A stretch of 64,000 nucleotides of DNA, taken from assembly GCA_016839745.1 (NCBI GenBank), contig JAEOTS010000044.1, positions 1 through 64,000 on the forward strand, written 5' to 3'. The translations under genes were made by a program, and so were the position numbers. Positions 7,703 to 50,005 of the stretch are shown here, in pieces. This DNA comes from Promethearchaeota archaeon. Its GTDB lineage: Archaea; Asgardarchaeota; Lokiarchaeia; Sigyniarchaeales; SOKP01. The notes under the pieces are model-generated. The model was not told where the DNA came from. It was given only the letters and a program-made list of their open reading frames with translations, and made no database searches. Every line of letters starts with the position of its first letter. Position 1 is the stretch's first letter.

Positions 7703-9190
7703 ATGAGCTATAAATTAGCAGATGATAAAGATTTAGAAGCAATGATTGGTATTGTAGGCAAAGAATACGCCACCAATAACAAGGCAATTACAGCGTCATA
7801 TCTTTCCAAATCTGTAATGGGATTAGAATCACAAATTCCTGATATCGTCGTGCGTCCTAAATACGTAGAAGAAATTCGTAAAATACTACTTTACTGCTCT
7901 GCAGAAAAAATCGCAGTCTCACCGATTTCAGCCGGATTATCTGGCGGCTTTGCATGTCCAACTATTAAGCCTGCTGGAGTTATGCTTGATTTAGGTAGAA
8001 TGGATAGAATTATCGAAGTTGATACAGAGAATCGATATGTTGTAGTCGAACCGGGAGTCACAATTGGAGAGCTTTGGGCTTACATGCACAAAAATTATCC
8101 AGAGTGGGCGCCTCCCGTACCAGACGGTGCTCCACCAGCTTCTACTGTAATGGGAGATGCTATCGATCGAGGGTTTTCCCTTTATACTAGCTCCGTTGGT
8201 CCACAAGGTGATAACTTCATGTGCGGTGAGATAGTGTTTCCAAACGGGGATATTGTGCGAACTGGTTCGTGGGCTTTGCCTTTTGCGAAACCATTCTATA
8301 AATATGGACTTGGTCCAGATATCTGGTCCTTTTTAATGGGTTCACAAGGAGCTCTTGGTGTAATGACTAAAGTCGCAGTCAAAATATATCCACATCCAAA
8401 ATTTAAGACTGTAGTTGTGTGGGGTATGTCCAATCCTGAAGATATGCAGAACCTAACATTAGAAATTGGAAAACAAGAATTTGGAATTGCTCACAACACA
8501 GTTATGGTTCAAGGTGGGAATTATCCTTTAGTAATGGCGCGTTGGCCAAAAGATAAAGTTCCTCACGATTATGAATTCTATGAAGAGTTAGGAATTAGTA
8601 GGTGGTGGATGAATTGGGAGTGCTGGGCACAAACTCAAGAAGAGTTAGATTATGTGGTTAATAGAATCAATGAAATGGCTGAAGATTTCAAGAAAAATAG
8701 AGCTAAAGATCCTGATAGTGTAAAACCTCAGATACTACATCCCAAACAAATCGCAAGCAGGTTGAAGAAACCAAATAAGATAGCGGTTCCTTATGCGTTT
8801 TGGGAAGCTGGATTCTTATTCATTACTTTCTATACCCCATGGAATGAATGCGCCCATTTTGCTGAAATGTATACTGCTGCTATGAAGAAATACGGTTTTC
8901 CAGAAGTTATGTGGATTGCTAGTATTGAACGTTGTAGGCAAGCAATTTGCATGCCAATTATTTGTTTCGATAGCACAAAACCATCAGATTTAGAAAAAGT
9001 TCAAGAGATGAATAGAGAAACAACAGAATACGCACTTAAGCAAGGATGGTTGAATTATCGTCCTGATCCATACATCCACGCGCCTCTCACTTATTCTCAA
9101 GCAGGAATGTATTGGAAGTATTTGAGAACGATGAAGAAGATTTTTGATCCTAATATGATAATGCATCCTGGGAGGCTTGCTCTTCCATAA
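7703..9190 (+). CDS. FAD-linked oxidase subunit, GlcD-like
   Basis: A 495-residue FAD-binding oxidase, a third member of the VAO/GlcD superfamily in this window but clearly more distant from the tandem pair at 1-3024. The FAD domain shows PDIVVRPKYVEEIRKIL, SPISAGLSGGFACP and VVVEPGVTIGELW in the first 130 residues, then a TNG-type PNGDIVRTGS strand; the C-terminus reads IFDPNMIMHPGRLALP. It is followed after 23 bases by an Fe-S subunit gene with a strong ribosome-binding site, so the two form an operon like those of glycolate or D-lactate oxidases, in which the flavoprotein oxidises a 2-hydroxy acid and the Fe-S subunit carries electrons onward. The substrate could also be an aromatic alcohol, since the family includes 4-cresol dehydrogenase. 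A 240-base AT-rich gap separates it from the upstream gene. Confidence 0.85.
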   Translation: MSYKLADDKDLEAMIGIVGKEYATNNKAITASYLSKSVMGLESQIPDIVVRPKYVEEIRKILLYCSAEKIAVSPISAGLSGGFACPTIKPAGVMLDLGRMDRIIEVDTENRYVVVEPGVTIGELWAYMHKNYPEWAPPVPDGAPPASTVMGDAIDRGFSLYTSSVGPQGDNFMCGEIVFPNGDIVRTGSWALPFAKPFYKYGLGPDIWSFLMGSQGALGVMTKVAVKIYPHPKFKTVVVWGMSNPEDMQNLTLEIGKQEFGIAHNTVMVQGGNYPLVMARWPKDKVPHDYEFYEELGISRWWMNWECWAQTQEELDYVVNRINEMAEDFKKNRAKDPDSVKPQILHPKQIASRLKKPNKIAVPYAFWEAGFLFITFYTPWNECAHFAEMYTAAMKKYGFPEVMWIASIERCRQAICMPIICFDSTKPSDLEKVQEMNRETTEYALKQGWLNYRPDPYIHAPLTYSQAGMYWKYLRTMKKIFDPNMIMHPGRLALP

Positions 9191-9196
9191 CTGAGT

Positions 9197-9204
9197 AAGG
9201 AGGT
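9197..9204 (+). promoter_or_regulatory. Strong Shine-Dalgarno of the Fe-S subunit gene
   Basis: AAGGAGGT, a near-perfect match to the 16S rRNA 3' end, lies 9 bases before the ATG at 9214. It fixes that start and shows that internal genes of operons here use Shine-Dalgarno initiation, unlike several first genes that seem leaderless. Confidence 0.75.
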
Positions 9205-9213
9205 TAAAAAAAA

Positions 9214-10575
9214 ATGGCTAAAACTGGAATGGAAAGATTAAAAGAATTGGAGAAGGAAATATATAAGTGTATCCATTGTAAAGCGTGTAGGTTTGCTTAT
9301 TCGGGAGAGCCTAGTAGAGAGGGGATAGGAGAATTCGCGGGAAAACAAAGCACAGTTCTTTACGAAGGAATGCTTGACGCGTGCCCTGCGGGAATAGAAT
9401 ACGGTTGGGAAGCGTTTTGGAATGCAGGAAAAATGTGGATTGCTCGTTCAATCTTAAACGGAGATTTAGAGTTTAATGAAGAAGTTAGGGATGTTATTAT
9501 GCCGTGCATTACATGCGGACAATGTTCAGTCCAATGTGAGAGTAAAATACCCACAGTAGACATTATTGAGTCTTTACGAGCTGCGTGTGTTGAAGCAGGC
9601 GTCCCTATGATTGAAAAGCATCAATTGGTTGATCGATTAGTTAAGGAATTGAACAACCCTTACGGAGGAAAGGCAGCAGAACGAATGAAATGGGCAAAGG
9701 ATGCTGGTTTAGGGAAATATATAAACAACAAAAACGCAAAAATTGGATATTACGTTGGCTGTACTGCTAGTTATCGGCAAGTAGAAGTTGCTATTGCTAC
9801 TGCTAAAGTTTTTGAACAATTAGGCATAGATTTTACATTAATCGAGGATGAAGTGTGTTGTGGAAGCCCCTTCTTTAGAATCGGCGCCGTTGATACTGCT
9901 CAAGAGTTAATGAATAAGAATTTGGAAACTTTCAAGGATTTGGAAGAAGTTTATTTCTCTTGTGCTGGTTGCTACCGGACTTTTACTATTGATTACCCTA
10001 AATGGATGACAGAAGGAGAAGAACTTCCGTTTAAAACGATGCACGCATTTGAATTAGTCTCAAAATTAATCACGGATGGCAAGATTAAGTTTAAACCAAA
10101 CAAAGAACTCAAGGGAAAAGTCGTAACATATCATGATCCTTGCCACACTGGTAGGCATTTTGCGCACGATATAGAACAATCGATGATCAAGAAATCTAAG
10201 AATTTAATGATGGACATGCGTAAAATTGACAAACTGATCGATGAATGGTTCGAAATTCCTCGAGTTATTTTGCGTAAACTTGAAGAGGATGTTGGAATTA
10301 AATTTATTGAAATGTATCGAATAAAAAATAATTCGATGTGTTGTGGTGCTGGTGGCGGAGTTAGAGCAGGATATCCTGATTTCTCTTTAAGAACAGCGAG
10401 TCTGCGATGTGACGAAGCTAATGCCGTAGGAGCCGACATTCTGACAACTGAATGCCCATTTTGTTGGAGAAACCTTTCTGACGCTAATGATTTGTATAAT
10501 CATAATATGCAAGTAATGGGCGTTCTCGAAATGATATCAAAATACAACTTATTAGATATTTCTAATTTAAAATAA
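9214..10575 (+). CDS. Fe-S oxidoreductase, GlpC/HdrD-like
   Basis: A 453-residue electron-transfer subunit. The N-terminus carries two 4Fe-4S clusters: CIHCKAC (C19, C22, C25) with CPAG as the fourth ligand, and CITCGQCSVQC near residue 98. Two CCG (cysteine-rich) domains follow, the first spanning YYVGCTASYR to VCCGSPF and the second YHDPCHTGRH to MCCGAGGG. These are the cofactor-binding modules shared with heterodisulfide reductase HdrB/HdrD, GlpC and LldE. It should accept electrons from the flavoprotein encoded just upstream and pass them to a membrane quinone, ferredoxin or a disulfide. There is no membrane segment. The gene ends at a clear hairpin terminator (10578-10600). Confidence 0.88.
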   Translation: MAKTGMERLKELEKEIYKCIHCKACRFAYSGEPSREGIGEFAGKQSTVLYEGMLDACPAGIEYGWEAFWNAGKMWIARSILNGDLEFNEEVRDVIMPCITCGQCSVQCESKIPTVDIIESLRAACVEAGVPMIEKHQLVDRLVKELNNPYGGKAAERMKWAKDAGLGKYINNKNAKIGYYVGCTASYRQVEVAIATAKVFEQLGIDFTLIEDEVCCGSPFFRIGAVDTAQELMNKNLETFKDLEEVYFSCAGCYRTFTIDYPKWMTEGEELPFKTMHAFELVSKLITDGKIKFKPNKELKGKVVTYHDPCHTGRHFAHDIEQSMIKKSKNLMMDMRKIDKLIDEWFEIPRVILRKLEEDVGIKFIEMYRIKNNSMCCGAGGGVRAGYPDFSLRTASLRCDEANAVGADILTTECPFCWRNLSDANDLYNHNMQVMGVLEMISKYNLLDISNLK

Positions 10576-10653: not shown

Positions 10654-11859
10654 TCAATATTTAGACAGCATTTCTAAAAAAGCTTCCATACGCGTCATGA
10701 TTTGTCCTGGTGCGTAGTTTCTTTCATCTACGCAATCTACATCTAAATGTATGGTTGGAATCCCTATTTTTTGAAGAGCATCTTTAAATAAGACCCTTGC
10801 ACCGGCAGATTGTCGGCATCCCCAGTGAGCGGGATTAACTGCGCCGTCTATTTTATAATCTTGTGCTAATTGCGTAATTACATCGAGTCGTCTATCAGCC
10901 GGACCAACTATAGGGTGAGTTATTATTCTTGTAGCGAGGCTTCTTAAAGGGTCATCTTCATCCATAGGTTCCCACCATATGTGATTAAGTTCATCAATTA
11001 CTATTTTTGCGCCATAATTTTCTTCCAGGATTCTCAAAAGATCAGTTTTAAATTGGATTCGATTCTGGATCCACATTAATCGGTATTTTTCTTCTTGTAA
11101 ACCACCTAAGTTATTATCAACTCTAAATTTAAATTCGTCTCGGTATAATTTTGCGACTTCAACGCTCTCTTTTGTTCCTTGAAGCAATACAATCATGATG
11201 AAGTTTTTTAAGTCGTTTGAATTTGCAGGACTTGGGACATTCATACATAATTTGTTTAATTCTATCAGGTATTCCCTTGCTTCATTATTGTATTTAATTG
11301 AATTTTTAAGCTTATCATAATCTAACTTACGACCAGTTTCGCTTTCGATGTACTCTATCATTTGCTCGAATTGTTCCGTTAAATAATCGACCGATTTTGG
11401 AGTTACTTCAATTGGAATGTTCAAAATAAAGACTTCCTTGTTAAAGATTTCTCCGATGCGTTTTAACGCTTTAACCCCGCCATTACAAGGGATACTTGCC
11501 CCAATGAGCACATCTGGTTCTGGTAGGAGTCCATCCATGGCGGCACCGATTATAGTTCTATGGTAAGAACAGCTATCAGTGGAATAACCTTTACTTTCTG
11601 AAAGATCAAGATATTTTCTTGACATACCAGTTCCAGCAAGCATCGCTCCAAAAAACTCAACAAACATGCCAGAAACGTTCATTGAACTGAGAAGTTCGTA
11701 TGGGACGAATACCGTAGTCCAACCAATTGACCAGTTGTCATCGAAGATTCGAGTTCCAATTCTTGCTATTTCGTAAACAAATTTTCTACGAGCGGTGGTT
11801 TTTGATTCTAGTTTGTTTTTTAGGCTTGTTTCCAATTGAGTAAAATATTTCTTTAACAT
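10654..11859 (-). CDS. 2-hydroxyacyl-CoA dehydratase family subunit (HgdB/FldC-like)
   Basis: A 401-residue member of the 2-hydroxyacyl-CoA dehydratase/benzoyl-CoA reductase family. Conserved cysteines at C97 (DSCSYHR), C125 (SIPCNGG) and C348 (HWGCRQ) are placed to bind the 4Fe-4S cluster of the D-component. In the family, a reductive single-electron mechanism removes water from a 2-hydroxyacyl-CoA or reduces an aromatic ring. Its partner subunit lies just upstream (11893-12918), 33 bases away in the same operon. The ATP-dependent activator (HgdC/BadF type), needed to inject the electron, is not in this window. The N-terminus (first 40 residues) is helical and charged. Whether the substrate is 2-hydroxyglutaryl-, lactoyl- or phenyllactyl-CoA cannot be decided. 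Confidence 0.82.
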   Translation of the reverse strand: MLKKYFTQLETSLKNKLESKTTARRKFVYEIARIGTRIFDDNWSIGWTTVFVPYELLSSMNVSGMFVEFFGAMLAGTGMSRKYLDLSESKGYSTDSCSYHRTIIGAAMDGLLPEPDVLIGASIPCNGGVKALKRIGEIFNKEVFILNIPIEVTPKSVDYLTEQFEQMIEYIESETGRKLDYDKLKNSIKYNNEAREYLIELNKLCMNVPSPANSNDLKNFIMIVLLQGTKESVEVAKLYRDEFKFRVDNNLGGLQEEKYRLMWIQNRIQFKTDLLRILEENYGAKIVIDELNHIWWEPMDEDDPLRSLATRIITHPIVGPADRRLDVITQLAQDYKIDGAVNPAHWGCRQSAGARVLFKDALQKIGIPTIHLDVDCVDERNYAPGQIMTRMEAFLEMLSKY

Positions 11860-11892
11860 ACCTTGAGCTGCTATTTTTTTTCACCTTTTTTT

Positions 11893-12918
11893 TTAACTTT
11901 TTATAATTTCTGAAAATGCCTCAATTCTAGTTCTAATTTGATTAACATCTCCTAAGCTACCATCACTTTCAATGAATAACACACTTAACCCCTTCTCAGT
12001 TAATATCGTTTTTAAAGCGGGGACATCGTATAAATATGTATCGCAAAATTTTAACGAGTGGTGAATCACTCCATCAACCCTGAATTTTTCTGCTGTTTTA
12101 TAAATCTGATCTGCTCTCTCCTTAATTTGCATCATTCGAGCGCATGGGGTTTTATTTAGATAAGCCTCACTTAAGGAAGCTAATAAATCGTGAGATTCAT
12201 TTATTACGAGATCAAAGAATTTGCTGCCTGTACAAAGATCTTCGTAAACCACATTCATTCCGATCTCTTCTATAAACGAGATAAATTCGATTTCGTGTAG
12301 AGGACTTCCTGATAAAAGTATTCTAGGGTTATTTTTTATAGCTACTTTTGGAGTTTGCATTCTTATATTTTCTAAAATGCCCTGGGTTTTATCATTCCAT
12401 ATTTTTGGTTCTGATTTAAAGAAATCCGAAGTAAGTTTCATTAAATCCGTTGCTGTTATTGAGGGTGGATTTTCTATTCTTAAAGAATTTAATTGGTTGT
12501 ACATTAAACGGGATTCTTTAAAAACATTAATTGCGTTCTTTATATCAAAATCACTAATAGTGATTACCGCGTGTTCTTCTAACGCATTTTTAAGCTTAAT
12601 AAACTCCTCCTTGAGATATTTTGCTCCTAACGATAAAGTTCCCATAGGAATATCTAAAATATGTATAAATTTCGAAGGAACATACCTTTTCCAAACGTCG
12701 TGAAGGCGTCGCATTGCATCGCAAGAATTAACGAAGACTACTCCGTCAAGAAAGTCGTACCCCCCATCAATTGCTACATCAATTGTAGATTTTACGAATT
12801 GACAGAAGTTAGGATGAATATAAGAATCTGCGTTTTGAGGAGGTTCAGAATGACCTATAATACGATAAGGAAGGAATCCCGCCGAATAAATTAGTTCTAA
12901 AGGGGTATAACTACACAT
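11893..12918 (-). CDS. 2-hydroxyacyl-CoA dehydratase family subunit (HgdA/FldB-like)
   Basis: The second D-component subunit, at least 341 residues. Conserved cysteines are seen in MCSYTP (C2), NFCQF (C39), NSCDAMRRLHD (C66) and, near the C-terminus, KFCDTYLYDVP. The coordinates given use the first ATG, but the frame stays open upstream and reads ITTDKKQIGW ahead of MCSYTPLELIYSAG. Homologs normally start with a short lead such as KKIGWFCSYTP, so the true start is probably an ATT at 12949-12951 or ATA at 12946-12948, with an AAGGAG Shine-Dalgarno at 12961-12966 spaced 9 bases from the ATT. It forms a dimer with the downstream gene product; together they should hold two 4Fe-4S clusters. The 215-base gap upstream separates it from the divergent peptidase gene. 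Confidence 0.8.
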   Translation of the reverse strand: MCSYTPLELIYSAGFLPYRIIGHSEPPQNADSYIHPNFCQFVKSTIDVAIDGGYDFLDGVVFVNSCDAMRRLHDVWKRYVPSKFIHILDIPMGTLSLGAKYLKEEFIKLKNALEEHAVITISDFDIKNAINVFKESRLMYNQLNSLRIENPPSITATDLMKLTSDFFKSEPKIWNDKTQGILENIRMQTPKVAIKNNPRILLSGSPLHEIEFISFIEEIGMNVVYEDLCTGSKFFDLVINESHDLLASLSEAYLNKTPCARMMQIKERADQIYKTAEKFRVDGVIHHSLKFCDTYLYDVPALKTILTEKGLSVLFIESDGSLGDVNQIRTRIEAFSEIIKS

Positions 12919-13133: not shown

Positions 13134-14621
13134 GTGAAATCAATGAAATGGAAAATAATAATTCCCATCATAGCTATCTTGCTTGTGGGAGTTATCATAA
13201 TTGCCCTTATTTTTAGTACTATTCCACATGTACCAATCACTCTACCACCAGGTGAAAGAAAAGCGATAATTCTTGGTAGTGCAAACGATTTTTATCCCTA
13301 CGAAGCAGAAGATAATTACGGTGGCGGAAATGATGCTACATTTGTGAACGATGTTGGTAATTGGACTTTTTCAGATACAAACAGTCTTGGATTTCATACA
13401 ATAATAAACAGCAATGTAACTCCAGGGTCACTATTTATTCAACCAATCGGCCCTGAATCTGTAGATGGTGTATTTAACCTAAATTATTCACAATTTTACG
13501 GCCTAGAAGAATATGCAATGTATAATCTCACAGCAAATATCTACATCCAGAGCATTGGTCCTATTCAAGGTAATGGTGTGCGAATAGGGTTAGAATGGTT
13601 AGATTCAGTAAACCAAGTTGTTAGGATAGATTGGTCGCGATACGAAAATTCTTCATTAAATCTATGGTTTCCTCTTAATATAATTGGTGTTTGCAATAAT
13701 GAGACAGGAAATGAGATTACGGCCCTAAACTTACTACTATCAGTAGAAGGGAGTTTCGATGTTTGGACAACGGAGGGAGTATACTACGATGATCTCATGT
13801 TAGATAAATGGATATCAGTTAACAATACTAACCCTGTTGATCCGAATCCTCCACCAAGCAGCATAGATTCAGACGGATTTCCGGCTCAAGCACTTCATGT
13901 ATACTGGATTTTAAAATCTCATGGATATACAGATGATAATATTTTTCTAATGTTATATCACACTAATGATCCAGTTATAGACATAAAAGCAGGAGACGGA
14001 ATTCTAAATGATTTAGTTGGAGCAGTTATCGATGTAGAAAATGACCAAGTAAATGCAAGTAGGTTTAAACAAGAATTAAATGCATCGGATTATCGCTCGT
14101 TTGCCACCAAGATCAATCCTAAGGACCAATTAATTGTATTTATGACTGACCATGGATCAAATGGCGTTCTTGGGGATGGCAACGCTACATTTCATTTTGA
14201 AGCAGATAACAGTTTTATTACTGAATTTGAGTTTTATGATTTAGTGAAGAATATTGATTGTGAACGTATGATGATAAATGTAGATTCTTGCTTTAGCGGT
14301 AACTTTCTTAATCAAAATAAAAATATAGGTCAGAGTTGGTACGACTTACCGAATTGCTTATTTGTGAGCGCATCTTCAAATGTGTTTTCTTGGTATTGGA
14401 TTAGTAATAACAACGGTGATGGTTTTGCTGGTTCATGGTTCTTTCATCAATTCTGGGATCAATTAGATCAAAATCAAACAGTTGCTAATGCGTTTACTTT
14501 TGCTATTAATTTTATACCATGGAAACAATGGGCGCCTTTAATCGTTACTCAATCTCCCTTAATGCAAGATAATCTAGGCATTAATACTACTTGGAGTTTT
14601 AATAGCGATCCCTCATTATAA
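13134..14621 (+). CDS. Membrane-anchored caspase-like (C13-type) cysteine peptidase
   Basis: A 495-residue protein with an N-terminal membrane segment (residues 7-29), probably anchoring an extracytoplasmic domain; Asn-x-Ser/Thr sites abound. The caspase/legumain fold starts at KAIILGSANDF (43-53), is interrupted by about 165 residues that look like a beta-rich jelly roll (EAEDNYGGG... to YYDDLMLDKW), and resumes at DGFPAQALHVYWILKSHGYTDDNI. The catalytic dyad is His340 in FMTDHGSNG and Cys386 in NVDSCFSGNF, both in the expected clan CD contexts. Legumain-type enzymes cut after Asn or Asp; the archaeal targets are unknown. An ATG at 13143 (residue 4) is an alternative start and lies better relative to the TATTTATAAAA box at 13117-13127. 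It is a single gene upstream of the giant coiled-coil gene. Confidence 0.82.
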   Translation: MKSMKWKIIIPIIAILLVGVIIIALIFSTIPHVPITLPPGERKAIILGSANDFYPYEAEDNYGGGNDATFVNDVGNWTFSDTNSLGFHTIINSNVTPGSLFIQPIGPESVDGVFNLNYSQFYGLEEYAMYNLTANIYIQSIGPIQGNGVRIGLEWLDSVNQVVRIDWSRYENSSLNLWFPLNIIGVCNNETGNEITALNLLLSVEGSFDVWTTEGVYYDDLMLDKWISVNNTNPVDPNPPPSSIDSDGFPAQALHVYWILKSHGYTDDNIFLMLYHTNDPVIDIKAGDGILNDLVGAVIDVENDQVNASRFKQELNASDYRSFATKINPKDQLIVFMTDHGSNGVLGDGNATFHFEADNSFITEFEFYDLVKNIDCERMMINVDSCFSGNFLNQNKNIGQSWYDLPNCLFVSASSNVFSWYWISNNNGDGFAGSWFFHQFWDQLDQNQTVANAFTFAINFIPWKQWAPLIVTQSPLMQDNLGINTTWSFNSDPSL

Positions 14622-14785: not shown

Positions 14786-17700
14786 TTGACAAATGTGGAA
14801 AACAAGACGGCATACCCATACATAACGGAATTCAAGAAGGAACCATTTAAATCTTTTTTATCAACGAATAGAAAGGATATTGGAAATTTTTATTTAAGCA
14901 ATTACGAAAAAATTTTGGAGTTATATCAACTCTATAATGAGAGCTTACTAAATGAAACTTCTTTAAAATTAGAAAATATTTATTGGTTTCTTTTGCTTAG
15001 AAAGTATCTCAAGCAAAAAGTGGATGTTTTCCGTGAGGAATATTTAAACATCATTAAAAATTGCGAAGTTGCGATTATCGAAAAAGATCAATTAGGTTTT
15101 AAATCATCTCCTCATTCTTCAAAAAAATCCGATATCTGGTCGTTATACTACACATTAGCTAGTCTAGAGCTATTAGGAATTTTAAACGAGTATCTTTCCT
15201 CTAAGGGAGATGGTGTTATAGTTCGACAAATAAAAAATTTCATTTATGCGCATAAGAAAAATAATGGATTTTTACACTGCTTTGATAAAAGTTGCGAGGA
15301 ATGTAATAACGGTCCTGTAGCAAAAACTTTTTATTATGTAATAGAAAGTCTTCTACTTCTTGGTATAGATGTAAGAGTATTCAAGGAGCAGTTTCGTTCG
15401 TATTTAAAAGAGAGGAAAAAAGATTCTACGATATTGTATAAGCTTTTAAGCCTTAAATTCTTCGATTTAGATTTAGAAGTAAGGGATAAAGAGATACAAT
15501 TTCTTTATCAATTTCAAAAAGAGAATGGTGGTTTTAGTTTTATTTACCAAGATGAAGATATTGATACAACCTTTTGGATAGTCAATATTCTCCACATTTA
15601 TTCTTGGTTAATTGATTACAACCCTGCTAGGATTTATTCCTTTATCACAGAAAAACTGGATCATATTTTTAGAGAAACAACAAGCTGGAATCTAAGAATT
15701 CTAAGAGAAGTAACTCAATTAGTCATACTATTATCTATAATTTGGAACCGCTTTATCGAAGAAATTGAAAGAGTCGTTTTTAAGCATTTAGAAACTCATA
15801 ATTTCATCGACTTAAACCAAATCAAAAACACATTTGGATTAAGCCATGGTTTAGATGAAATTGTTTTATATATCAATTTAAATTACACTTTTACTTTAAA
15901 AAAAGTTGATACTACTTTAGAATTCAATCAATATATTCAAAATCTAAGTCAAAGTAAAAGAGTTATTATTCGGGAAATTTATGAACAACTAAGTGATAAT
16001 AGTGTAATATCACTCTCCGATATTTATAAGAAGTATAGAGGTTCCTATAACGAAGAGCCATTAAGATTAAAGGAAGATATTTTTCCAATACTTCATGATT
16101 TAATAAGTAATCATTTTTTTGAAGGGGAAATCAAAGCTAAAAAAACCTATTTATTTAAAACTAAATACTACTTTTGTTTGGATTACTTATTCAAAAATAT
16201 CCTTATTGTTGATAATGAAATTAGTACTGAAAGGTTATACGAAGAAAAGTCAAAATTGAAGGAAATTAAGAACGATATTTACAATATGACATTAAAACTG
16301 AAAAATACGATTCCACAAATTAGGGAAGAGATTGAATCGTATCTTTTAATAGACGAAGTTGATTTTGCCAAAGAAAGATTGAAGTTTGTCTTGCGGAATT
16401 CATTAATGGAAGCTGATTTCTTAAACGAGAACATCGAATCCTCGTTTAATCAAGAATTAATCTATATTAACCTACAAGCAACTCTTGGCGTTGAAATATC
16501 TCAGTGGAACAAATCCTATTCTTTATTACAAAATGGTTTGAATGAATTAAATAGTTATCTCCAAGAAAGAATACAAGAAAAGGAAAGTTTAAAAAAATAT
16601 AGTGTTATTTTAGATGAACTGGATAGTAAAATTTACGACATTCAAGATCAGATAAATCGTGAAGTAGATTCTTTTAAGAATTACATAGTCGAAGTTTTGG
16701 ATAAGGGGTATAACAAGGAAAAATTTGATCTCATTATTCAAGCATTTAATAGGATATCTCAAATTGTAAGTAAATACGATGCGGTTATTTACAAAGTCTC
16801 GCACCAAGTTACAACAAAAGAGAAAAAAATAGCAAAAAACCACAAGAAAATAATCTATAAATGGGTGGATTTCAAAGAGAATTTTGATTCGATATTCGCA
16901 GATTATACTAATGGCTTTCAATTTTTTAACGAACTAAATAACAACATCAGAAATGTTAAAGATAATATACAGAATGGAATATTAAAAATAAAGGACAATG
17001 CGAAGAACCAAGTAGCTAATAATCAGTATCAAGACGCTTTTAAGACCATCAAAACAGAATCTGACATTTTACTAAAAAACAAAACTGAGGAAATTCATAA
17101 GTTAAAACAATTAGTAAAGAAAAATACTAGTTTTAAACAAAAACTCTTTCCACTTTATAAGTATCTAGACGAAAAGCTGGATAGCTTAGAAGAGAACATC
17201 ATTGGACTTATAGCTGACCAAGTTCAAATTCTAAAAGAAAAAGTCATTGAAGAGAGAAAACGAGCCAAAGTTGAAGATTTTGACGATTATGTTTCAAACA
17301 CGATTCAGATTTTTAAAGATAAATTAGAAAAATACAAATTTAGTATAGATCAAAATAGAGTAAACAAAATTCCGGATGTAATCAGGGGTTTTGATACAAT
17401 TATTATAGAATTTAATGATTATAACAAGAATTTCTCAAAGAAACTGCTCAATTTAACTGAGATTGTTGATAACCCTGACGAGAATTCGATTAAAATAATT
17501 CAATGGGAGAATTTTAGTGATTTTTTAAGTAACGAGGTAAGTAAATTAAAGGATGAATATGTAAACAAGATAATTTCTAACGAAATTTATCTCATGAGTG
17601 AAAAAGAAAATACAGATAAAATTGACATTAAGAAACTTGCTGATAAATTAAAACTCAAGTGTAAAACAATAATTCCAAGAATAAAAGATTTGATTGAAGT

Positions 17701-19198
17701 CTCTAAATTGCAGGGAGATTTACTCGAAGACAAAAAAGAACTTATTGTACATACTGAAGCATACCATAAGAATAGGGAATTAAAAAATTTCGCGGAAAAT
17801 AGAATTTTAAAACAAACACAGGAGACTATTGGACAGTTATTGGCGCTCTACGATTCATGTATAAAAAATAAGACTTTAAGAGTTAATTTTTTAGAAATTC
17901 AAAATAGGATTAACGATTTAAGTGATTTTAAGGAATTAATAAATGACCAATATACTATTAAGCTTAAAGAGTTAAATGTAGATGAAAATAGAATAGAAAA
18001 CATGGAACTGAGTAATAATATTAACGGTATCATTAGCAACGACGAATTAGCAATAGAAAAAATTAAAGAGAATTTACGATTATTTAAGGAACTAGAGTCT
18101 TTCATGGTTAACGAGTATAATGCTTTAAAAATAGATTTAGAAAACCTTTTTTCTAAAACTGCTGAAGATATTGAGAAGGTCGAGCTTCAGGGGAAAATGA
18201 AAGAAATTCTCGAAGGTAGAAAAGAGAAAGTTGAAATAAAGTTAAAGCAAGTAGATGATAAAATCGAAGAGAAGTTGAAAAATGTAATAAATAAAACTTA
18301 TGAATCTAAAAAATTTGAAACGGAAGCAAGAGAATTTTATTTCGAGAAGAAAAATGAAATCAAAAAATTAGTGAGAGAAAGAGTTAATGCTATTGAGGAG
18401 ACTATTAATACATTAAAACTTGAAACAGACAGGGGAAAATTATTAGCTATAATAAACAAAAATAATATTCATCTAAGTCAATTATTAGGCACACTTCAAG
18501 CACGAGTTGAGGACTATATTGATACAGAGCAATTTAAAAGAGCTTATCTACGAGTAAATAAAAAACATAAGTACATTGAGCAGGAAATTAGAAATTCAAA
18601 CAGAAGAATTAAAGACATCTACAAGGCATTTAATAGAAATTCTAACGATTTTGAAACCAAACATAAGCATATAATCAACGATTTTGACCGTTTCATAAAA
18701 GAGTTTAACGAGATATTAAGGGAAAAAGTTAAAACCTTAGAAGAATTAATTGTTAAATCGTACATAGAAATGGCAATAAAAGCTGTAGCAAATGAATTCC
18801 TCACTCTAAGTTTTCTACAAAATGAATTGAAAATGAAAAAACAACTGATTCAGAAGCATCTTATCTCTCTTATTAGTGCTGGTAAGTTAAGTGGTAAATA
18901 TGATCCTCAAATTGGGTTATATTACGAAAATCCTGATGTAATAAAAACATTGAACGAGAACGAATTAGAAGTAATTAAAAAAATGAATTTTCGAATGTAC
19001 ATGTTTATGAGACGCTTAAAAAACTTAACAAACCAATACGGGTCAATTATCGCTTTCTTTGCCTCACTAATTACAATTTCCTATTATATTTTCAGAATTA
19101 GCGGAGAGAACCCGTTAACAATTATAATCCCAATCATTCTTACATTAGTGGTACTTGCCTATCTCCTTTTCAAGAAAAAAAAAGACGAAAAAATTTGA
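14786..19198 (+). CDS. Giant toroid/coiled-coil protein with C-terminal membrane anchor
   Basis: A 1470-residue protein. Residues about 110-330 look like the alpha/alpha-toroid of prenyltransferase/squalene-cyclase proteins: repeated helices with KNNGFLHCF (159-166) and ENGGFSFIYQDEDIDTTFW (246-264) turns. A winged-helix-like segment follows at about 395-455 (ISLSDIYKKYRGS...FFEGEIKAKKTYLFK). About 470-1330 is nearly continuous charged helix with heptad-like spacing, rich in Lys, Glu, Asn and Ile. At about 1335-1395 another winged helix appears (FLTLSFLQNELKMKKQLIQKHL...GKLSGKYD), similar in style to the end of PCI domains. Two membrane segments (about 1417-1433 and 1443-1463) end in a lysine-rich tail. 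The start is TTG at 14786. I know no family with this whole architecture; a tethering or scaffold role at the membrane is inference. It converges on the helicase gene with 20 bases between. Confidence 0.72.
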   Translation: MTNVENKTAYPYITEFKKEPFKSFLSTNRKDIGNFYLSNYEKILELYQLYNESLLNETSLKLENIYWFLLLRKYLKQKVDVFREEYLNIIKNCEVAIIEKDQLGFKSSPHSSKKSDIWSLYYTLASLELLGILNEYLSSKGDGVIVRQIKNFIYAHKKNNGFLHCFDKSCEECNNGPVAKTFYYVIESLLLLGIDVRVFKEQFRSYLKERKKDSTILYKLLSLKFFDLDLEVRDKEIQFLYQFQKENGGFSFIYQDEDIDTTFWIVNILHIYSWLIDYNPARIYSFITEKLDHIFRETTSWNLRILREVTQLVILLSIIWNRFIEEIERVVFKHLETHNFIDLNQIKNTFGLSHGLDEIVLYINLNYTFTLKKVDTTLEFNQYIQNLSQSKRVIIREIYEQLSDNSVISLSDIYKKYRGSYNEEPLRLKEDIFPILHDLISNHFFEGEIKAKKTYLFKTKYYFCLDYLFKNILIVDNEISTERLYEEKSKLKEIKNDIYNMTLKLKNTIPQIREEIESYLLIDEVDFAKERLKFVLRNSLMEADFLNENIESSFNQELIYINLQATLGVEISQWNKSYSLLQNGLNELNSYLQERIQEKESLKKYSVILDELDSKIYDIQDQINREVDSFKNYIVEVLDKGYNKEKFDLIIQAFNRISQIVSKYDAVIYKVSHQVTTKEKKIAKNHKKIIYKWVDFKENFDSIFADYTNGFQFFNELNNNIRNVKDNIQNGILKIKDNAKNQVANNQYQDAFKTIKTESDILLKNKTEEIHKLKQLVKKNTSFKQKLFPLYKYLDEKLDSLEENIIGLIADQVQILKEKVIEERKRAKVEDFDDYVSNTIQIFKDKLEKYKFSIDQNRVNKIPDVIRGFDTIIIEFNDYNKNFSKKLLNLTEIVDNPDENSIKIIQWENFSDFLSNEVSKLKDEYVNKIISNEIYLMSEKENTDKIDIKKLADKLKLKCKTIIPRIKDLIEVSKLQGDLLEDKKELIVHTEAYHKNRELKNFAENRILKQTQETIGQLLALYDSCIKNKTLRVNFLEIQNRINDLSDFKELINDQYTIKLKELNVDENRIENMELSNNINGIISNDELAIEKIKENLRLFKELESFMVNEYNALKIDLENLFSKTAEDIEKVELQGKMKEILEGRKEKVEIKLKQVDDKIEEKLKNVINKTYESKKFETEAREFYFEKKNEIKKLVRERVNAIEETINTLKLETDRGKLLAIINKNNIHLSQLLGTLQARVEDYIDTEQFKRAYLRVNKKHKYIEQEIRNSNRRIKDIYKAFNRNSNDFETKHKHIINDFDRFIKEFNEILREKVKTLEELIVKSYIEMAIKAVANEFLTLSFLQNELKMKKQLIQKHLISLISAGKLSGKYDPQIGLYYENPDVIKTLNENELEVIKKMNFRMYMFMRRLKNLTNQYGSIIAFFASLITISYYIFRISGENPLTIIIPIILTLVVLAYLLFKKKKDEKI

Positions 19199-26943: not shown

Positions 26944-27636
26944 ATGAAAGAACTGAGCGAATTAGAACCATTATTTGAAAGTCGTACTATTAAACCTACC
27001 TTCGAATATGTTCATGTCTTATTATCACTATTTATATTTGGAGAAAATTCAGAAGGTATTGGAAGATATCGCCTTAAGGAAGAGTTACAGATTGGTTCGG
27101 GGACGGCTAAATCTTTATTTAAAAAATTGAAAGATGTTAGTAAATTTATCATGGTTCCAAGTGAGGGAAAAGGAAGTAATAGTGAAATACAGAGAAAGGG
27201 ACATATATTAACGGAAAAAGGTTATAATTTTTTAACAAAAATTAAAAAAAAGATTCCTATTTTAGAGAAAGCAAATTTGAAGTTTTTGAAAGAGATTATT
27301 ATTGAACCTGAAAATGTCAATCCTTATTTCTGTTTAGTTAAGAACGCTGCTAAAAATATTAATGATGGAATAGAGCAAAGAGATGCTGCAATAAAGATTG
27401 ATGGTTCTGGAGCCACATGTCTTATCTATAACGGGAAAGATATGTATTTTCCAACAAAAGCAAGTAACATAAATGAGAGAGAGAAAATAAATCAAAACAC
27501 ATTGAATTATTTTAAAACTGAGATTGAAGACGCAAATGTGAAATTCGAAATTAACGATGTAATTATTATTGGTTCCGGAGATAATCCACAAAAGTCACGA
27601 TTAGCTACCCTAAACGCGGCTTTAACTTTATTTTGA
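26944..27636 (+). CDS. Winged-helix protein, DUF4443-like
   Basis: A 230-residue protein. The first 95 residues are a winged helix: PTFEYVHVLLSLFIF, then GIGRYRLKEELQIGSGTAKSLFKKL as the recognition helix, and a wing ending in LTEKGYNFLTKIKKK. This pattern fits the archaeal DUF4443 family, which I recall as a helix-turn-helix protein with a unique C-terminal half. Residues 100-230 form an alpha/beta domain (ATCLIYNGKDMYFPTK, VIIIGSGDNPQKSRLATLNAAL) that may bind a small ligand. It lies 20 bases upstream of a JAMM peptidase gene and is presumably co-transcribed with it, so it could control or accompany that activity. No Shine-Dalgarno is obvious at the ATG. Confidence 0.65.
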   Translation: MKELSELEPLFESRTIKPTFEYVHVLLSLFIFGENSEGIGRYRLKEELQIGSGTAKSLFKKLKDVSKFIMVPSEGKGSNSEIQRKGHILTEKGYNFLTKIKKKIPILEKANLKFLKEIIIEPENVNPYFCLVKNAAKNINDGIEQRDAAIKIDGSGATCLIYNGKDMYFPTKASNINEREKINQNTLNYFKTEIEDANVKFEINDVIIIGSGDNPQKSRLATLNAALTLF

Positions 27637-27656
27637 TTCTAAGTATTTGACATAAA

Positions 27657-28136
27657 ATGAGATTTGAAAACGATATAGTTTTTGTGATAGACAGGAATTT
27701 AATTAGTGACATTAATAAATGTATTGAGAAAGCCCACCCAAACGAAGCATGTGGTTTTATTTTTGGTGATATTCAAGAATTTAATAATAATGGTGATTTT
27801 AAATATAAATATTCCAGTGAAATTTTTCAGTGCATTGAATCTAGCATATCAAGTCCCGCGTCATTTTTAATAGATAATGATAAAAAAATATTGGAGCTAT
27901 CAAACACTACATTAAAAAAGAAAGGCTTAAAACTATTAGCTATTTTTCACTCTCATCCTGCGGGAGCAAATCCTAGTAGTATTGATAAAAAATGTATGAA
28001 ATATTATCATAATTGTGGTATAAAAAAGTTTACTCATTTAGTTTGGATAATAGTAGATTCCAGAAATAAAGATAGTAATGGATTTATTTATTTGGACAAT
28101 AAGCTTACTAAGATAAAAATAGAAGTAAGTGAATAA
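27657..28136 (+). CDS. JAMM/MPN+ metallopeptidase
   Basis: A 159-residue single-domain JAMM peptidase. Zinc ligands and the catalytic acid are visible: E30 in PNEACGFIFGD, H98 and H100 in HSHP, and D110 after PSSID. Archaeal relatives (HvJAMM1-type) remove ubiquitin-like SAMP modifiers; eukaryotic relatives are Rpn11 and CSN5. One oddity is that only five residues separate HSHP from the serine, whereas the usual HxHPx6SxxD has six; the nucleotide sequence confirms this. It is the second gene of an operon with a winged-helix protein, and faces the proteasome beta gene 70 bases away, a link that supports a role in protein tagging or turnover. No ubiquitin-like, E1 or E2 gene lies in the window. 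It could instead trim cofactor-type peptides. Confidence 0.82.
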   Translation: MRFENDIVFVIDRNLISDINKCIEKAHPNEACGFIFGDIQEFNNNGDFKYKYSSEIFQCIESSISSPASFLIDNDKKILELSNTTLKKKGLKLLAIFHSHPAGANPSSIDKKCMKYYHNCGIKKFTHLVWIIVDSRNKDSNGFIYLDNKLTKIKIEVSE

Positions 28137-32712: not shown

Positions 32713-33822
32713 TTAAAAAATATTAAAAACTAAAAACGCGAGGATAATTGTTATGGCGTTATAAACGCCATGAGTGATCATAACTGCTATTAAATTTTCT
32801 TTCCTCCAATAATATAGCAAGCCAAGCAAAAGAGAAATCGCGAAAAAGGGAAAAAAGTTGAGAAGTAAGGAGATTACAAATGTTGTCACTGATTCTGGGT
32901 ATAAGAATATTGCTATTAAGTGAACAGAAGAAAATATTAATGCCGTAACTAAAAGACCCCAGGTTTTACCTAAGCTTCGGACTAGTCCTTTTTGTAAAAA
33001 ACCTCGAAATAAAACTTCCTCGGATGTACCTATAATCACTATCATTATAATAACTAACAAGATAATGCTAATAATATCTGAAGATGCTATGAGTATATCT
33101 ACTTCACCAGGAGTTCCAATTATGCCTGATATAATTTCATAACCGAAAATTACTGTTAATAACATTTCCATAGCAAATGACACGAAAAGAACTAATAGAA
33201 CGCCTATAACAGCAAATCCTAATCCAATTAAAATTTCTTTAATAAGTTGGGTTTTATTAAAATCTTTTGTAGTAAATCCTAACAGTATTAATCGATTATT
33301 AATATTTGGTCTTTGTAAATATTTGCCAACATATAGAAACGGAACAATAAATAAGATTAATTCTATAAAGGAACTAAATATTATAAAATACGGATTAGCG
33401 ATTATATTATTTAATTCATCTAAACTGAGTGAAAAAAACATAAAAATAAATAATCCCAAAAAAGCGATTAAGTTCATTAGAAAAAAAGCTGCTGCTGTCA
33501 TTCCTACAGACTGCGGAATGCTCCATAATTTTTTATCTATCAGATTGGAGAGATCTTCCTCAGTGAGTTTTTCTCTTAACGGCTTATATAATCCATACTT
33601 ATAAGATTGATATGAACTAGGTGTTGGAGTGACGAGAGAAATAGTATCTTTGCGAGGGGGCATCCTCATATGGGTGTTAATATATTGAAGATCAACACCA
33701 CACTTAATACAGTATTGAATATGTTCAACTTGAGGTATCTTTGTCCCACATATTGGACAATAAGCCCATTTCAGCCTACTACGACTCAGCTCGTCTAAAT
33801 TCTTTTTCTCATTCATTCTCAT
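32713..33822 (-). CDS. Zinc ribbon plus CPBP-family intramembrane protease
   Basis: A 369-residue membrane protein. The N-terminal 45 residues hold a zinc ribbon (CPICG...CIKCG, near 22 and 38). After a linker, about eight membrane segments follow, and the CPBP protease motifs are EEVLFRGFLQ (near residue 268), a SVHLI segment, and THGVYNAI near the C-terminus. The fusion puts a probable nucleic-acid- or protein-binding ribbon on the cytoplasmic side of an intramembrane protease. Substrate unknown. It is followed after 18 bases by mtxX. A smaller CPBP protein without ribbon is at 3120-3704. Confidence 0.8.
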   Translation of the reverse strand: MRMNEKKNLDELSRSRLKWAYCPICGTKIPQVEHIQYCIKCGVDLQYINTHMRMPPRKDTISLVTPTPSSYQSYKYGLYKPLREKLTEEDLSNLIDKKLWSIPQSVGMTAAAFFLMNLIAFLGLFIFMFFSLSLDELNNIIANPYFIIFSSFIELILFIVPFLYVGKYLQRPNINNRLILLGFTTKDFNKTQLIKEILIGLGFAVIGVLLVLFVSFAMEMLLTVIFGYEIISGIIGTPGEVDILIASSDIISIILLVIIMIVIIGTSEEVLFRGFLQKGLVRSLGKTWGLLVTALIFSSVHLIAIFLYPESVTTFVISLLLNFFPFFAISLLLGLLYYWRKENLIAVMITHGVYNAITIILAFLVFNIF

Positions 33823-48079: not shown

Positions 48080-50005
48080 ATGACATTAAGAATTAAGAAT
48101 AAGCAATTTGTTGATGATATAGGCCGAACAGTGCTACTGAGGGGTGTGAATTTAGGGGGAAGCTCAAAAGTTCCCGTAACTCCTAATGGCGCAACACATA
48201 TTAAAACGAATTTTACAGATCATAGAGATGTTTCTTTTGTTGGTCGACCATTCCCTTTAAAAGAAGCAGATGAACATTTTTCACGATTAAAGCATTGGGG
48301 TTTTAATTGTCTTAGGTTTTTGGTAACCTGGGAGGCTATAGAGCATAGTGGCCCAAGAGAATACGATAAAGAATACTTAGATTATCTTGAAGAAATTCTA
48401 AAGATTGCTGAAGAAAATGAGTTTTACATATTTATAGATCCCCATCAGGATGTTTGGAGTAGAATAACTGGCGGAGATGGTGCACCAGGATGGACATTTG
48501 AAAAAGTAGGGTTAGATTATACGAAATTTGAATCCTCTGAGGCAACTTTTGTAATGCAATACAGATATAACCCTAATGACCTAGCTAAATATTCTTCAAT
48601 GCATTGGATGGGGAATACCTATAGATTTGCTAATGGAACGATGTGGACATTATTCTTTGGAGGAAAAGATTTTGCACCTTCAAGTACTATTGATGGAAAA
48701 AACGCTCAAGATTATTTGCAGAATCATTTCTTTGATGCTATGAAGCAACTAGCATTAAGGGTAAGAGATAATTCGCGTGTATTAGGATTTGATATATTAA
48801 ATGAACCTCCTGAAGGATGGATTAGTAAATATGTTGATGGAAGTGAATGGGAGGGGAAGTCTGATGTATTAGGGCATGTTTTTACTCCTATCGATGCAAT
48901 GCTTACTGGGGCAGGGCATACTAGAACAATTGGATATCAAGAAATGAAAAGGTTTGGTATAAAAGAAACTCGAAAAGATGAGTTAAATCAAGGTAAAATT
49001 TCATGTTGGTTAGAAGGTTTTGAAGATATCTGGAAAAAAGAAGGTGTTTGGGGATTAGATGAGTTTGGAAATCCAAAAATTGAAAAAAATGAATATTTTG
49101 TTTATAAAAATAGAGAAAAAGTCGATTTTTACCGAGATTATTTTACCCCTTTCCTTAAAGGCTATACTAAAGCTATCCGAGATAAATTTCCAGACGCTAG
49201 TATATTTCTTACAGGACCAATGGAGGGAGTGTTGAAAGGAGAGAGATTTGAATTAGAAATTCCACCTAATAGTGTACATGCTGCCCACTGGTACGATGTG
49301 GCAACAACTGGTACAAAAAAAGCAATGCTTAAAGCTAATTATAATTTAATTACAGGAAAACCAGTTATTGGCAAAGAAAACGTGCGACAAATGTTCATCT
49401 CGCAATTAGCAAAAATTAAAGCATACTCTAATTCTTTTTTTAATGGTATTCCGACCTTAATTGAGGAATTTGGATTGCCATTTGATCTTAATAATAAAGA
49501 AGCTTATCAGAAATTAAAAACTGATCCGAAAGTAGCATGGGATACACATATAAAATTGCTAAATAACTATTATAACGCATTAGATGCTAATTTATTACAT
49601 GCATTACAATGGAATTATACCCCAGATAATACTAACGAATGGGGGGATTTATGGAATTTAGAAGATTTATCAATTTATAGCATCGATCAAAGGGTTAATC
49701 CAGAGGATATTAATAGTGGTGGGAGAGCAATTAAGGGATTTTGTCGCCCACATTTTGTTCGTTGTACTGGCATTCCAAAAAAAATGGATTTTCAGATGGA
49801 GGAAGGTATCTTTTATTTTGAGTTTGAAGGTGACATTTCTATAAAAGGCTCAACAATTCTTTTTATTCCAAGAATTCATTTTCCAAACGGTTATAATATT
49901 AAAGTGTCTGAGGGTGAAATTCAAAAAGATGAAAAAAATCAAGTAGTATCCATTTTCATTAAAGAAAATGGGATTCATACAATTAATGTTATAAAAATCC
50001 AATAA
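48080..50005 (+). CDS. GH5_12-like beta-glycosidase (glucocerebrosidase/steryl glucosidase type)
   Basis: A 641-residue glycoside hydrolase family 5 enzyme. The acid/base is E242 in GFDILNEPPEGW and the nucleophile E463 in TLIEEFGLPFD. Further matches to GH5_12 are DPHQDVWSRITGGDGAPGWTFE (about 120-141), HAAHWYDV and WNYTPDNTNEWGDLWNLEDLSIYS, a segment I recall as diagnostic of fungal EGCrP2-type enzymes that hydrolyse glucosylceramide and steryl glucosides. The last 100 residues are a beta-rich module. There is no signal peptide, so it acts in the cytosol. The SCP2-like proteins nearby also point to lipid-linked substrates. This identification is from memory; GH5 itself is certain. Confidence 0.8.
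   Translation: MTLRIKNKQFVDDIGRTVLLRGVNLGGSSKVPVTPNGATHIKTNFTDHRDVSFVGRPFPLKEADEHFSRLKHWGFNCLRFLVTWEAIEHSGPREYDKEYLDYLEEILKIAEENEFYIFIDPHQDVWSRITGGDGAPGWTFEKVGLDYTKFESSEATFVMQYRYNPNDLAKYSSMHWMGNTYRFANGTMWTLFFGGKDFAPSSTIDGKNAQDYLQNHFFDAMKQLALRVRDNSRVLGFDILNEPPEGWISKYVDGSEWEGKSDVLGHVFTPIDAMLTGAGHTRTIGYQEMKRFGIKETRKDELNQGKISCWLEGFEDIWKKEGVWGLDEFGNPKIEKNEYFVYKNREKVDFYRDYFTPFLKGYTKAIRDKFPDASIFLTGPMEGVLKGERFELEIPPNSVHAAHWYDVATTGTKKAMLKANYNLITGKPVIGKENVRQMFISQLAKIKAYSNSFFNGIPTLIEEFGLPFDLNNKEAYQKLKTDPKVAWDTHIKLLNNYYNALDANLLHALQWNYTPDNTNEWGDLWNLEDLSIYSIDQRVNPEDINSGGRAIKGFCRPHFVRCTGIPKKMDFQMEEGIFYFEFEGDISIKGSTILFIPRIHFPNGYNIKVSEGEIQKDEKNQVVSIFIKENGIHTINVIKIQ

Follow-up and report, generated by a model that had tools for sequence, protein, structure and literature searches.

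What does a Lokiarchaeon make of a 1470-residue protein that opens with a prenyltransferase-like toroid, continues in long helices and winged helices, and ends in the membrane? The protein is encoded at positions 14786..19198 of the forward strand, on which all its features given below also lie, in the window analysed here, that is, the whole 64,000-nucleotide stretch covering positions 1 to 64,000 of contig JAEOTS010000044.1 from a Promethearchaeota archaeon (Lokiarchaeia; Sigyniarchaeales; SOKP01; assembly GCA_016839745.1). It belongs to a new family built from known modules, and it is probably a cytosolic, membrane-anchored and non-enzymatic scaffold that would be assembled through PCI-type winged helices and the toroid head. 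The open reading frame is complete, with an in-frame TAG directly upstream of a TTG start, and TTG is also the first codon in 30 of 45 relatives when the first start codon is taken mechanically. It is not a chance frame, because it has matches in 47 of 58 relatives' genomes, most with E near 0, and because its differences from an 86% identical ortholog (L002) amount to 0.081, 0.059 and 0.244 at the first, second and third codon positions. Given this pattern and the nonsynonymous and synonymous divergence of the same pair (dN 0.068, dS 0.57), it is, as judged from sequence comparison, a real and strongly constrained gene.

AlphaFold2 (AF2) models of residues 1-800 (mean predicted local distance difference test score, pLDDT, 88.4) and 720-1470 (mean 85.0), each built with 44 sequences, revealed in order a toroid, two winged helices, long helices, a winged helix, long helices, another winged helix and a membrane part, with the helices over this last part, at the chain end, poorly resolved. 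An earlier note on this DNA had stated that no described family has this order of parts, and this held: the window protein returned no NCBIfam match, piecemeal Pfam matches and no single-sequence PDB match, so that the whole architecture was found in no entry of these three databases, and the protein is not described in the open-licence literature searched on Asgard and Lokiarchaeal PCI and prenyltransferase-toroid proteins. What the note missed are the PCI/DDRGK type of the C-terminal winged helices, the duplication of a rod-plus-PCI unit and the likeness of the toroid to Rab geranylgeranyltransferase beta (RabGGTase beta) without the catalytic metal ligands of that enzyme. The winged-helix-like segments that it had counted as two are present, but there are four of them in the AF2 models (340-375, 389-475, 945-988 and 1338-1380).

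The first two winged helices are predicted at residues 303-375 (15692..15910; AF2 secondary structure) and 389-475 (15950..16210; AF2), and as a pair they gave a weak PDB profile match to a DDRGK1-UFL1 chimera (8b9x, E 0.005). This chimera is also the best PDB profile match (E 2e-5) of the third winged helix, residues 945-988 (17618..17749), which was hit by Pfam PCI in 10 of 35 homolog slices and by DDRGK (PF09756) in two of the 35, at a best E of 4.9e-5 and with the window protein itself unmatched. The fourth carries a Pfam PCI match (PF01399) at residues 1310-1374 (18713..18925) of the window protein, with 22.1 bits against a curated cut-off of 22, and the same model matched at E ≤ 0.1 in 22 of 26 full-length homologs and at E ≤ 0.01 in 27 of 34 C-terminal slices. 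PDB profile matches of this C-terminal PCI region were Rpn6, eIF3e and Rpn7, and the best 50 Foldseek matches of the C-terminal half were eIF3 and other initiation, proteasome and COP9 chains, a ciliary protein being the one clear exception. The succession expected of a PCI domain, a helical array followed by a winged helix and a C-terminal helix, was found both in the AF2 model and in the profile alignment with Rpn6, which runs through the winged helix into the C-terminal helix of Rpn6. Judged by Pfam and PDB profiles, and for the C-terminal part also by Foldseek, both C-terminal winged helices are of the PCI/DDRGK type; we claim the type and not descent from one family because the winged helices of PCI, DDRGK and UFL1 proteins are alike. 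Winged helices of PCI proteins and of UFL1 and DDRGK1 are protein-assembly modules in known complexes. A role of PCI domains in oligomerisation has been stated, along with a PCI-like winged helix in ESCRT-associated archaeal kinases (PMC10936438). Elsewhere in the window genome, a PCI match lies within a 3622-codon open frame (G000:C144:32165-32350).

These matches raise the alternative of a membrane platform that works like the UFL1-DDRGK1 (UREL) UFM1 ligase, its winged helices binding an E2 or ubiquitin-like protein which the membrane tail would place beside the translocon or ribosome. With that complex the protein shares winged-helix arrays, a coiled coil and membrane anchoring, and 8b9x is the best solved relative of the third winged helix and is also matched, weakly, by the N-terminal pair; UFL1 and DDRGK1 are reported to be of Asgard origin and to have arisen before UFM1 (PMC10183829), and a JAB-domain gene (27657-28136) lies 8.5 kb from the toroid gene. 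UFM1 is reported to be confined to eukaryotes (PMC10183829), however, the proximity of the JAB gene is not conserved, the parts stand in another order, and the window protein has no match to the E3_UFM1_ligase domain of UFL1 (PF09743) at E ≤ 1. That absence, together with a separate protein of about 800 residues in relatives' genomes which the models of UFL1 and DDRGK do hit, rules out membership of the UFL1 family, and a platform of this kind seems to us unlikely. The Lokiarchaeal proteins of about 800 residues (L125-L134, L137-L140, L142, L143, L145, L146) carry zinc motifs at the N terminus together with tandem winged helices, and many of them match both E3_UFM1_ligase and DDRGK, which makes them a UFL1/DDRGK-like array in a single chain. 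The JAB gene (Prok-JAB) follows a DUF4443/PH0730-like gene, the two together spanning 26944-28136 (+).

Two long helical rods in the AF2 models, residues 481-944 (16226..17617) and 991-1337 (17756..18796), account for the charged helix that had been put at over 800 residues; a helical part of about 800 residues is there, but it is split by the third winged helix. Comparison with hhalign revealed that the rods belong to a duplication, in which unit R1 (residues 700-1010; 16883..17815), made of helices and a PCI-type winged helix, aligned with unit R2 (residues 1090-1412; 18053..19021) at E 6.5e-16 and a score of 117; column shuffling, repeated 30 times, reached at most 17.6 and the reversed profile 33.4. 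The winged-helix parts alone scored 60.4 against a control maximum of 17.7. R1 and R2 are homologous, and in each of them a PCI/DDRGK-type winged helix sits at the end of a long helical rod. The chain therefore runs from the toroid head through the winged-helix pair to two rod-plus-PCI modules. Subunits of the proteasome lid (Rpn6, Rpn7), the COP9 signalosome and eIF3 (PF01399) share the succession of helices and PCI winged helix, but the subunits matched are soluble, whereas here one chain carries two PCI units, long rods, a toroid head and a transmembrane (TM) tail.

The head itself, residues 40-300 (14903..15685), is the alpha-alpha toroid of protein prenyltransferase beta subunits. Pfam Prenyltrans (PF00432) matched it in the window protein (E 1.1e-8) and in 22 of 26 homologs, RabGGTase beta was both its best PDB profile match (E 2.5e-9) and its best fold match (Foldseek, 3dss_B among others, E 1.7e-4, probability 1.00), and AF2 bore out the toroid earlier read from repeats, predicting a series of helical hairpins over about residues 40-300 with pLDDT mostly above 85. 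The repeats had been given as GGF near residues 160 and 248; GGF does stand at 248-250, but near 160 the motif is NNGF-HC. A Ribophorin II match in one homolog was isolated, and we treated it as noise of the toroid superfamily. The catalytic zinc ligands of prenyltransferase beta subunits, a D-x-C at the start of an inner helix and a His, were not found in this toroid: the Asp, Cys and His of RabGGTase align to residues 61 (mostly N; N/K), 63 (mostly E) and 119 (S), in a register that rests on a weak profile-alignment segment and of which the missing D-x-C is independent. Some members do have a D-x-C, which sits in the HC loop and not at an inner-helix start. Judged by these ligands the toroid is no canonical catalyst, because they are replaced and no D-x-C opens an inner helix, and an active protein prenyltransferase was rejected on account of the missing triad. 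Unlike RabGGTase beta, the toroid is here the N-terminal head of a 1470-residue membrane protein and has an H-C-C(-C) loop of its own, H164-C165-x4-C170-x2-C173 (15275..15304), conserved at H164 in 44/44 homologs, at C165 and C170 in 43/44 each and at C173 in 33/44. D116 (15131..15133) is likewise invariant (44/44), and this conserved His/Cys set can reasonably be taken as a putative metal site.

Could the head still act on isoprenoids? An altered or even active prenyltransferase, or an isoprenoid-binding domain at the membrane, with D116/H164/C165/C170 as a non-canonical metal site, would accord with RabGGTase beta as the closest fold, with the invariance of D116 and H164 and near-invariance of C165 and C170, and with a motif scan over a sample of further Asgard toroid loci, which recovered neither the HC motif nor the conserved set. 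The canonical ligands are missing, however, at the inner-helix starts. Beta subunits of protein prenyltransferases form heterodimers with a TPR-like alpha subunit, and no alpha-subunit partner is known here, no search aimed at alpha subunits having been made. In addition, the small GTPases of MK-D1 are reported to have no C-terminal cysteines (PMC10933270), and we consider a prenyl-related function distinctly unlikely. A different toroid occurs in several relatives roughly 9-16 kb upstream of the 1470-residue gene, where a protein of about 1050 residues is a fusion of an ABC ATPase with a prenyltransferase-like toroid that seems to be extracytoplasmic (L077:1559-4702, L076:2-3127, L079:1715-4819); its gene is followed by a degenerate ABC-like gene and by one for a TM protein whose N terminus is roadblock/longin-like.

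At the other end of the chain, the two membrane segments already noticed there were placed by family hydropathy at residues 1418-1436 (19037..19093) and 1444-1462 (19115..19171), the second followed by a K/R-rich tail, and almost every full-length member ends in them. Across the family, K and R residues average 3.4 ahead of the first segment and 4.7 behind the second, with 0.09 in the loop between them. By the positive-inside rule these flanks make the pair a hairpin with both ends cytosolic, and hence the bulk of the protein should be in the cytosol; no hydrophobic signal segment was seen at the N terminus. The conserved hairpin and its charge pattern support the earlier description of the protein as membrane-tethered.

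To evaluate the distribution, we ran the family alignment against 228 genomes from the phylum, which revealed a gene that is class-wide and mostly single-copy in Lokiarchaeia. Family-level matches were present in 63 of 65 genomes of its own family (one merely a contig-end fragment), the two without a match being 84% and 58% complete, in 6/8 and 1/1 genomes of the second and third families of the order, in 0/5 of the fourth, and in 4/4 of three further families of the class, or 74/83 for the class as counted from the search table. Beyond the class there were weak partial matches at most. Most genomes hold one copy, and in a tree of the N-terminal two thirds the order-level families group as vertical descent predicts. 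Named relatives are Candidatus Lokiarchaeota/Lokiarchaeia metagenome-assembled genomes, by which the source itself was judged a Lokiarchaeon, and a single-protein scan matched Lokiarchaeota throughout save for one marginal match in a cyanobacterial bin (E 1e-3).

A few genomes also encode sister proteins of about 1250 residues (L083:883-4632, L081:5255-8962, L037:7770-11561, L039:2903-6856), which share with the window protein the HC-bearing toroid, the helical rods and the C-terminal winged helix of PCI type but are patchily distributed and end in a domain of about 130 residues instead of the TM hairpin. This domain is widespread, with matches in 221/226 Asgard genomes and often at least 10 in each; Pfam gave one weak match (Fuz_longin_1, E 0.007) and a PDB search with it returned nothing relevant, for which reasons we dropped the plain label longin for longin-like. 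Such an exchange of anchor for domain points to a body that serves as a platform and is positioned by the end it carries. Small GTPases, roadblock domains and longin domains have been described from Asgard archaea (PMC10933270), and a GTPase-linked tether akin to trafficking tethers, with the longin form as its soluble counterpart, would suit the long rods, the membrane anchor, the sister domain and the dozens of Rab-like GTPases and longin domains reported from Loki genomes (PMC10933270), but with the longin assignment so weak in Pfam and unsupported in the PDB, and the longin form patchy, we hold it to be very doubtful.

From the anatomy, the duplication, the topology signal, the conservation and the absence of the prenyltransferase triad, all obtained by computation, we infer scaffolding, binding partners and a role for the toroid. 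The scaffold reading is favoured because the winged helices are of the PCI/DDRGK type, the rod unit is duplicated, the TM hairpin is conserved and the zinc triad is missing, and also because the protein is near-universal, mostly single-copy and vertically inherited, with a longin-like tail swapped in among its sisters. In such a scaffold the two-TM hairpin, both its ends on the cytosolic side, would anchor the protein in the cell membrane, and the two rod modules with their winged-helix caps would project from the membrane and offer docking surfaces for winged-helix or PCI proteins or for a ribonucleoprotein- or ubiquitin-type machine. The N-terminal tandem winged helix would bear the toroid; with its catalytic zinc ligands lost, this head may bind a partner, a peptide or a prenyl chain, and a separate His/Cys metal site might lend it stability. 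Several points weigh against this. Winged helices occur in DNA-binding proteins too; the Foldseek matches of the C-terminal half have E ≥ 2e-3 and low TM-scores, the latter because the rods are flexible; the (near-)invariant D116/H164/C165/C170 exceed the needs of a pure scaffold; and no partner is known for the protein, whose gene has its own intergenic region and varying upstream neighbours.

Across 42 loci, no conserved operon was found. The most conserved neighbour is a convergent gene for a Hef-like helicase (29 loci), and the upstream neighbours include a C13 peptidase (17), a TM/Ig-like protein of about 200 residues (15) and an aminotransferase-like protein (9), with a gap before the gene of roughly 60-300 bp in nearly all loci; the varying upstream neighbours and the intergenic region rule out an operon-based function. 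In the window, the gene directly upstream (13134-14621, +) encodes the Peptidase_C13 protein, which is legumain/GPI8-like and has a hydrophobic anchor at its N terminus. The window also holds an Rce1-like membrane protein of the CAAX-protease family (32713-33822, -), whose gene is not linked to that of the toroid protein. Further genes in it are those for a GH5 glycosidase with a Glyco_hydro_5_C domain, here in a Lokiarchaeon (48080-50005, +), and two adjacent ones for 2-hydroxyglutaryl-CoA dehydratase D-components (10654-12918, -), beside which a gene pair (7703-10575) resembles an FAD-linked oxidase and an Fe-S protein.

The protein joins, on the membrane, two modules that in eukaryotes serve Rab lipidation and PCI complexes. 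A bolder interpretation, which we think improbable, is that this membrane-anchored PCI scaffold, present throughout Lokiarchaeia and with a metal site of its own in a RabGGTase-like sensor head, represents a prokaryotic relative of the principle by which PCI/MPN and UFL1-DDRGK1 complexes are assembled; if true, it could show how machines of these types first became membrane-tied. Partners of the protein, if found, would name the membrane process of Lokiarchaeia that uses PCI-type assembly.

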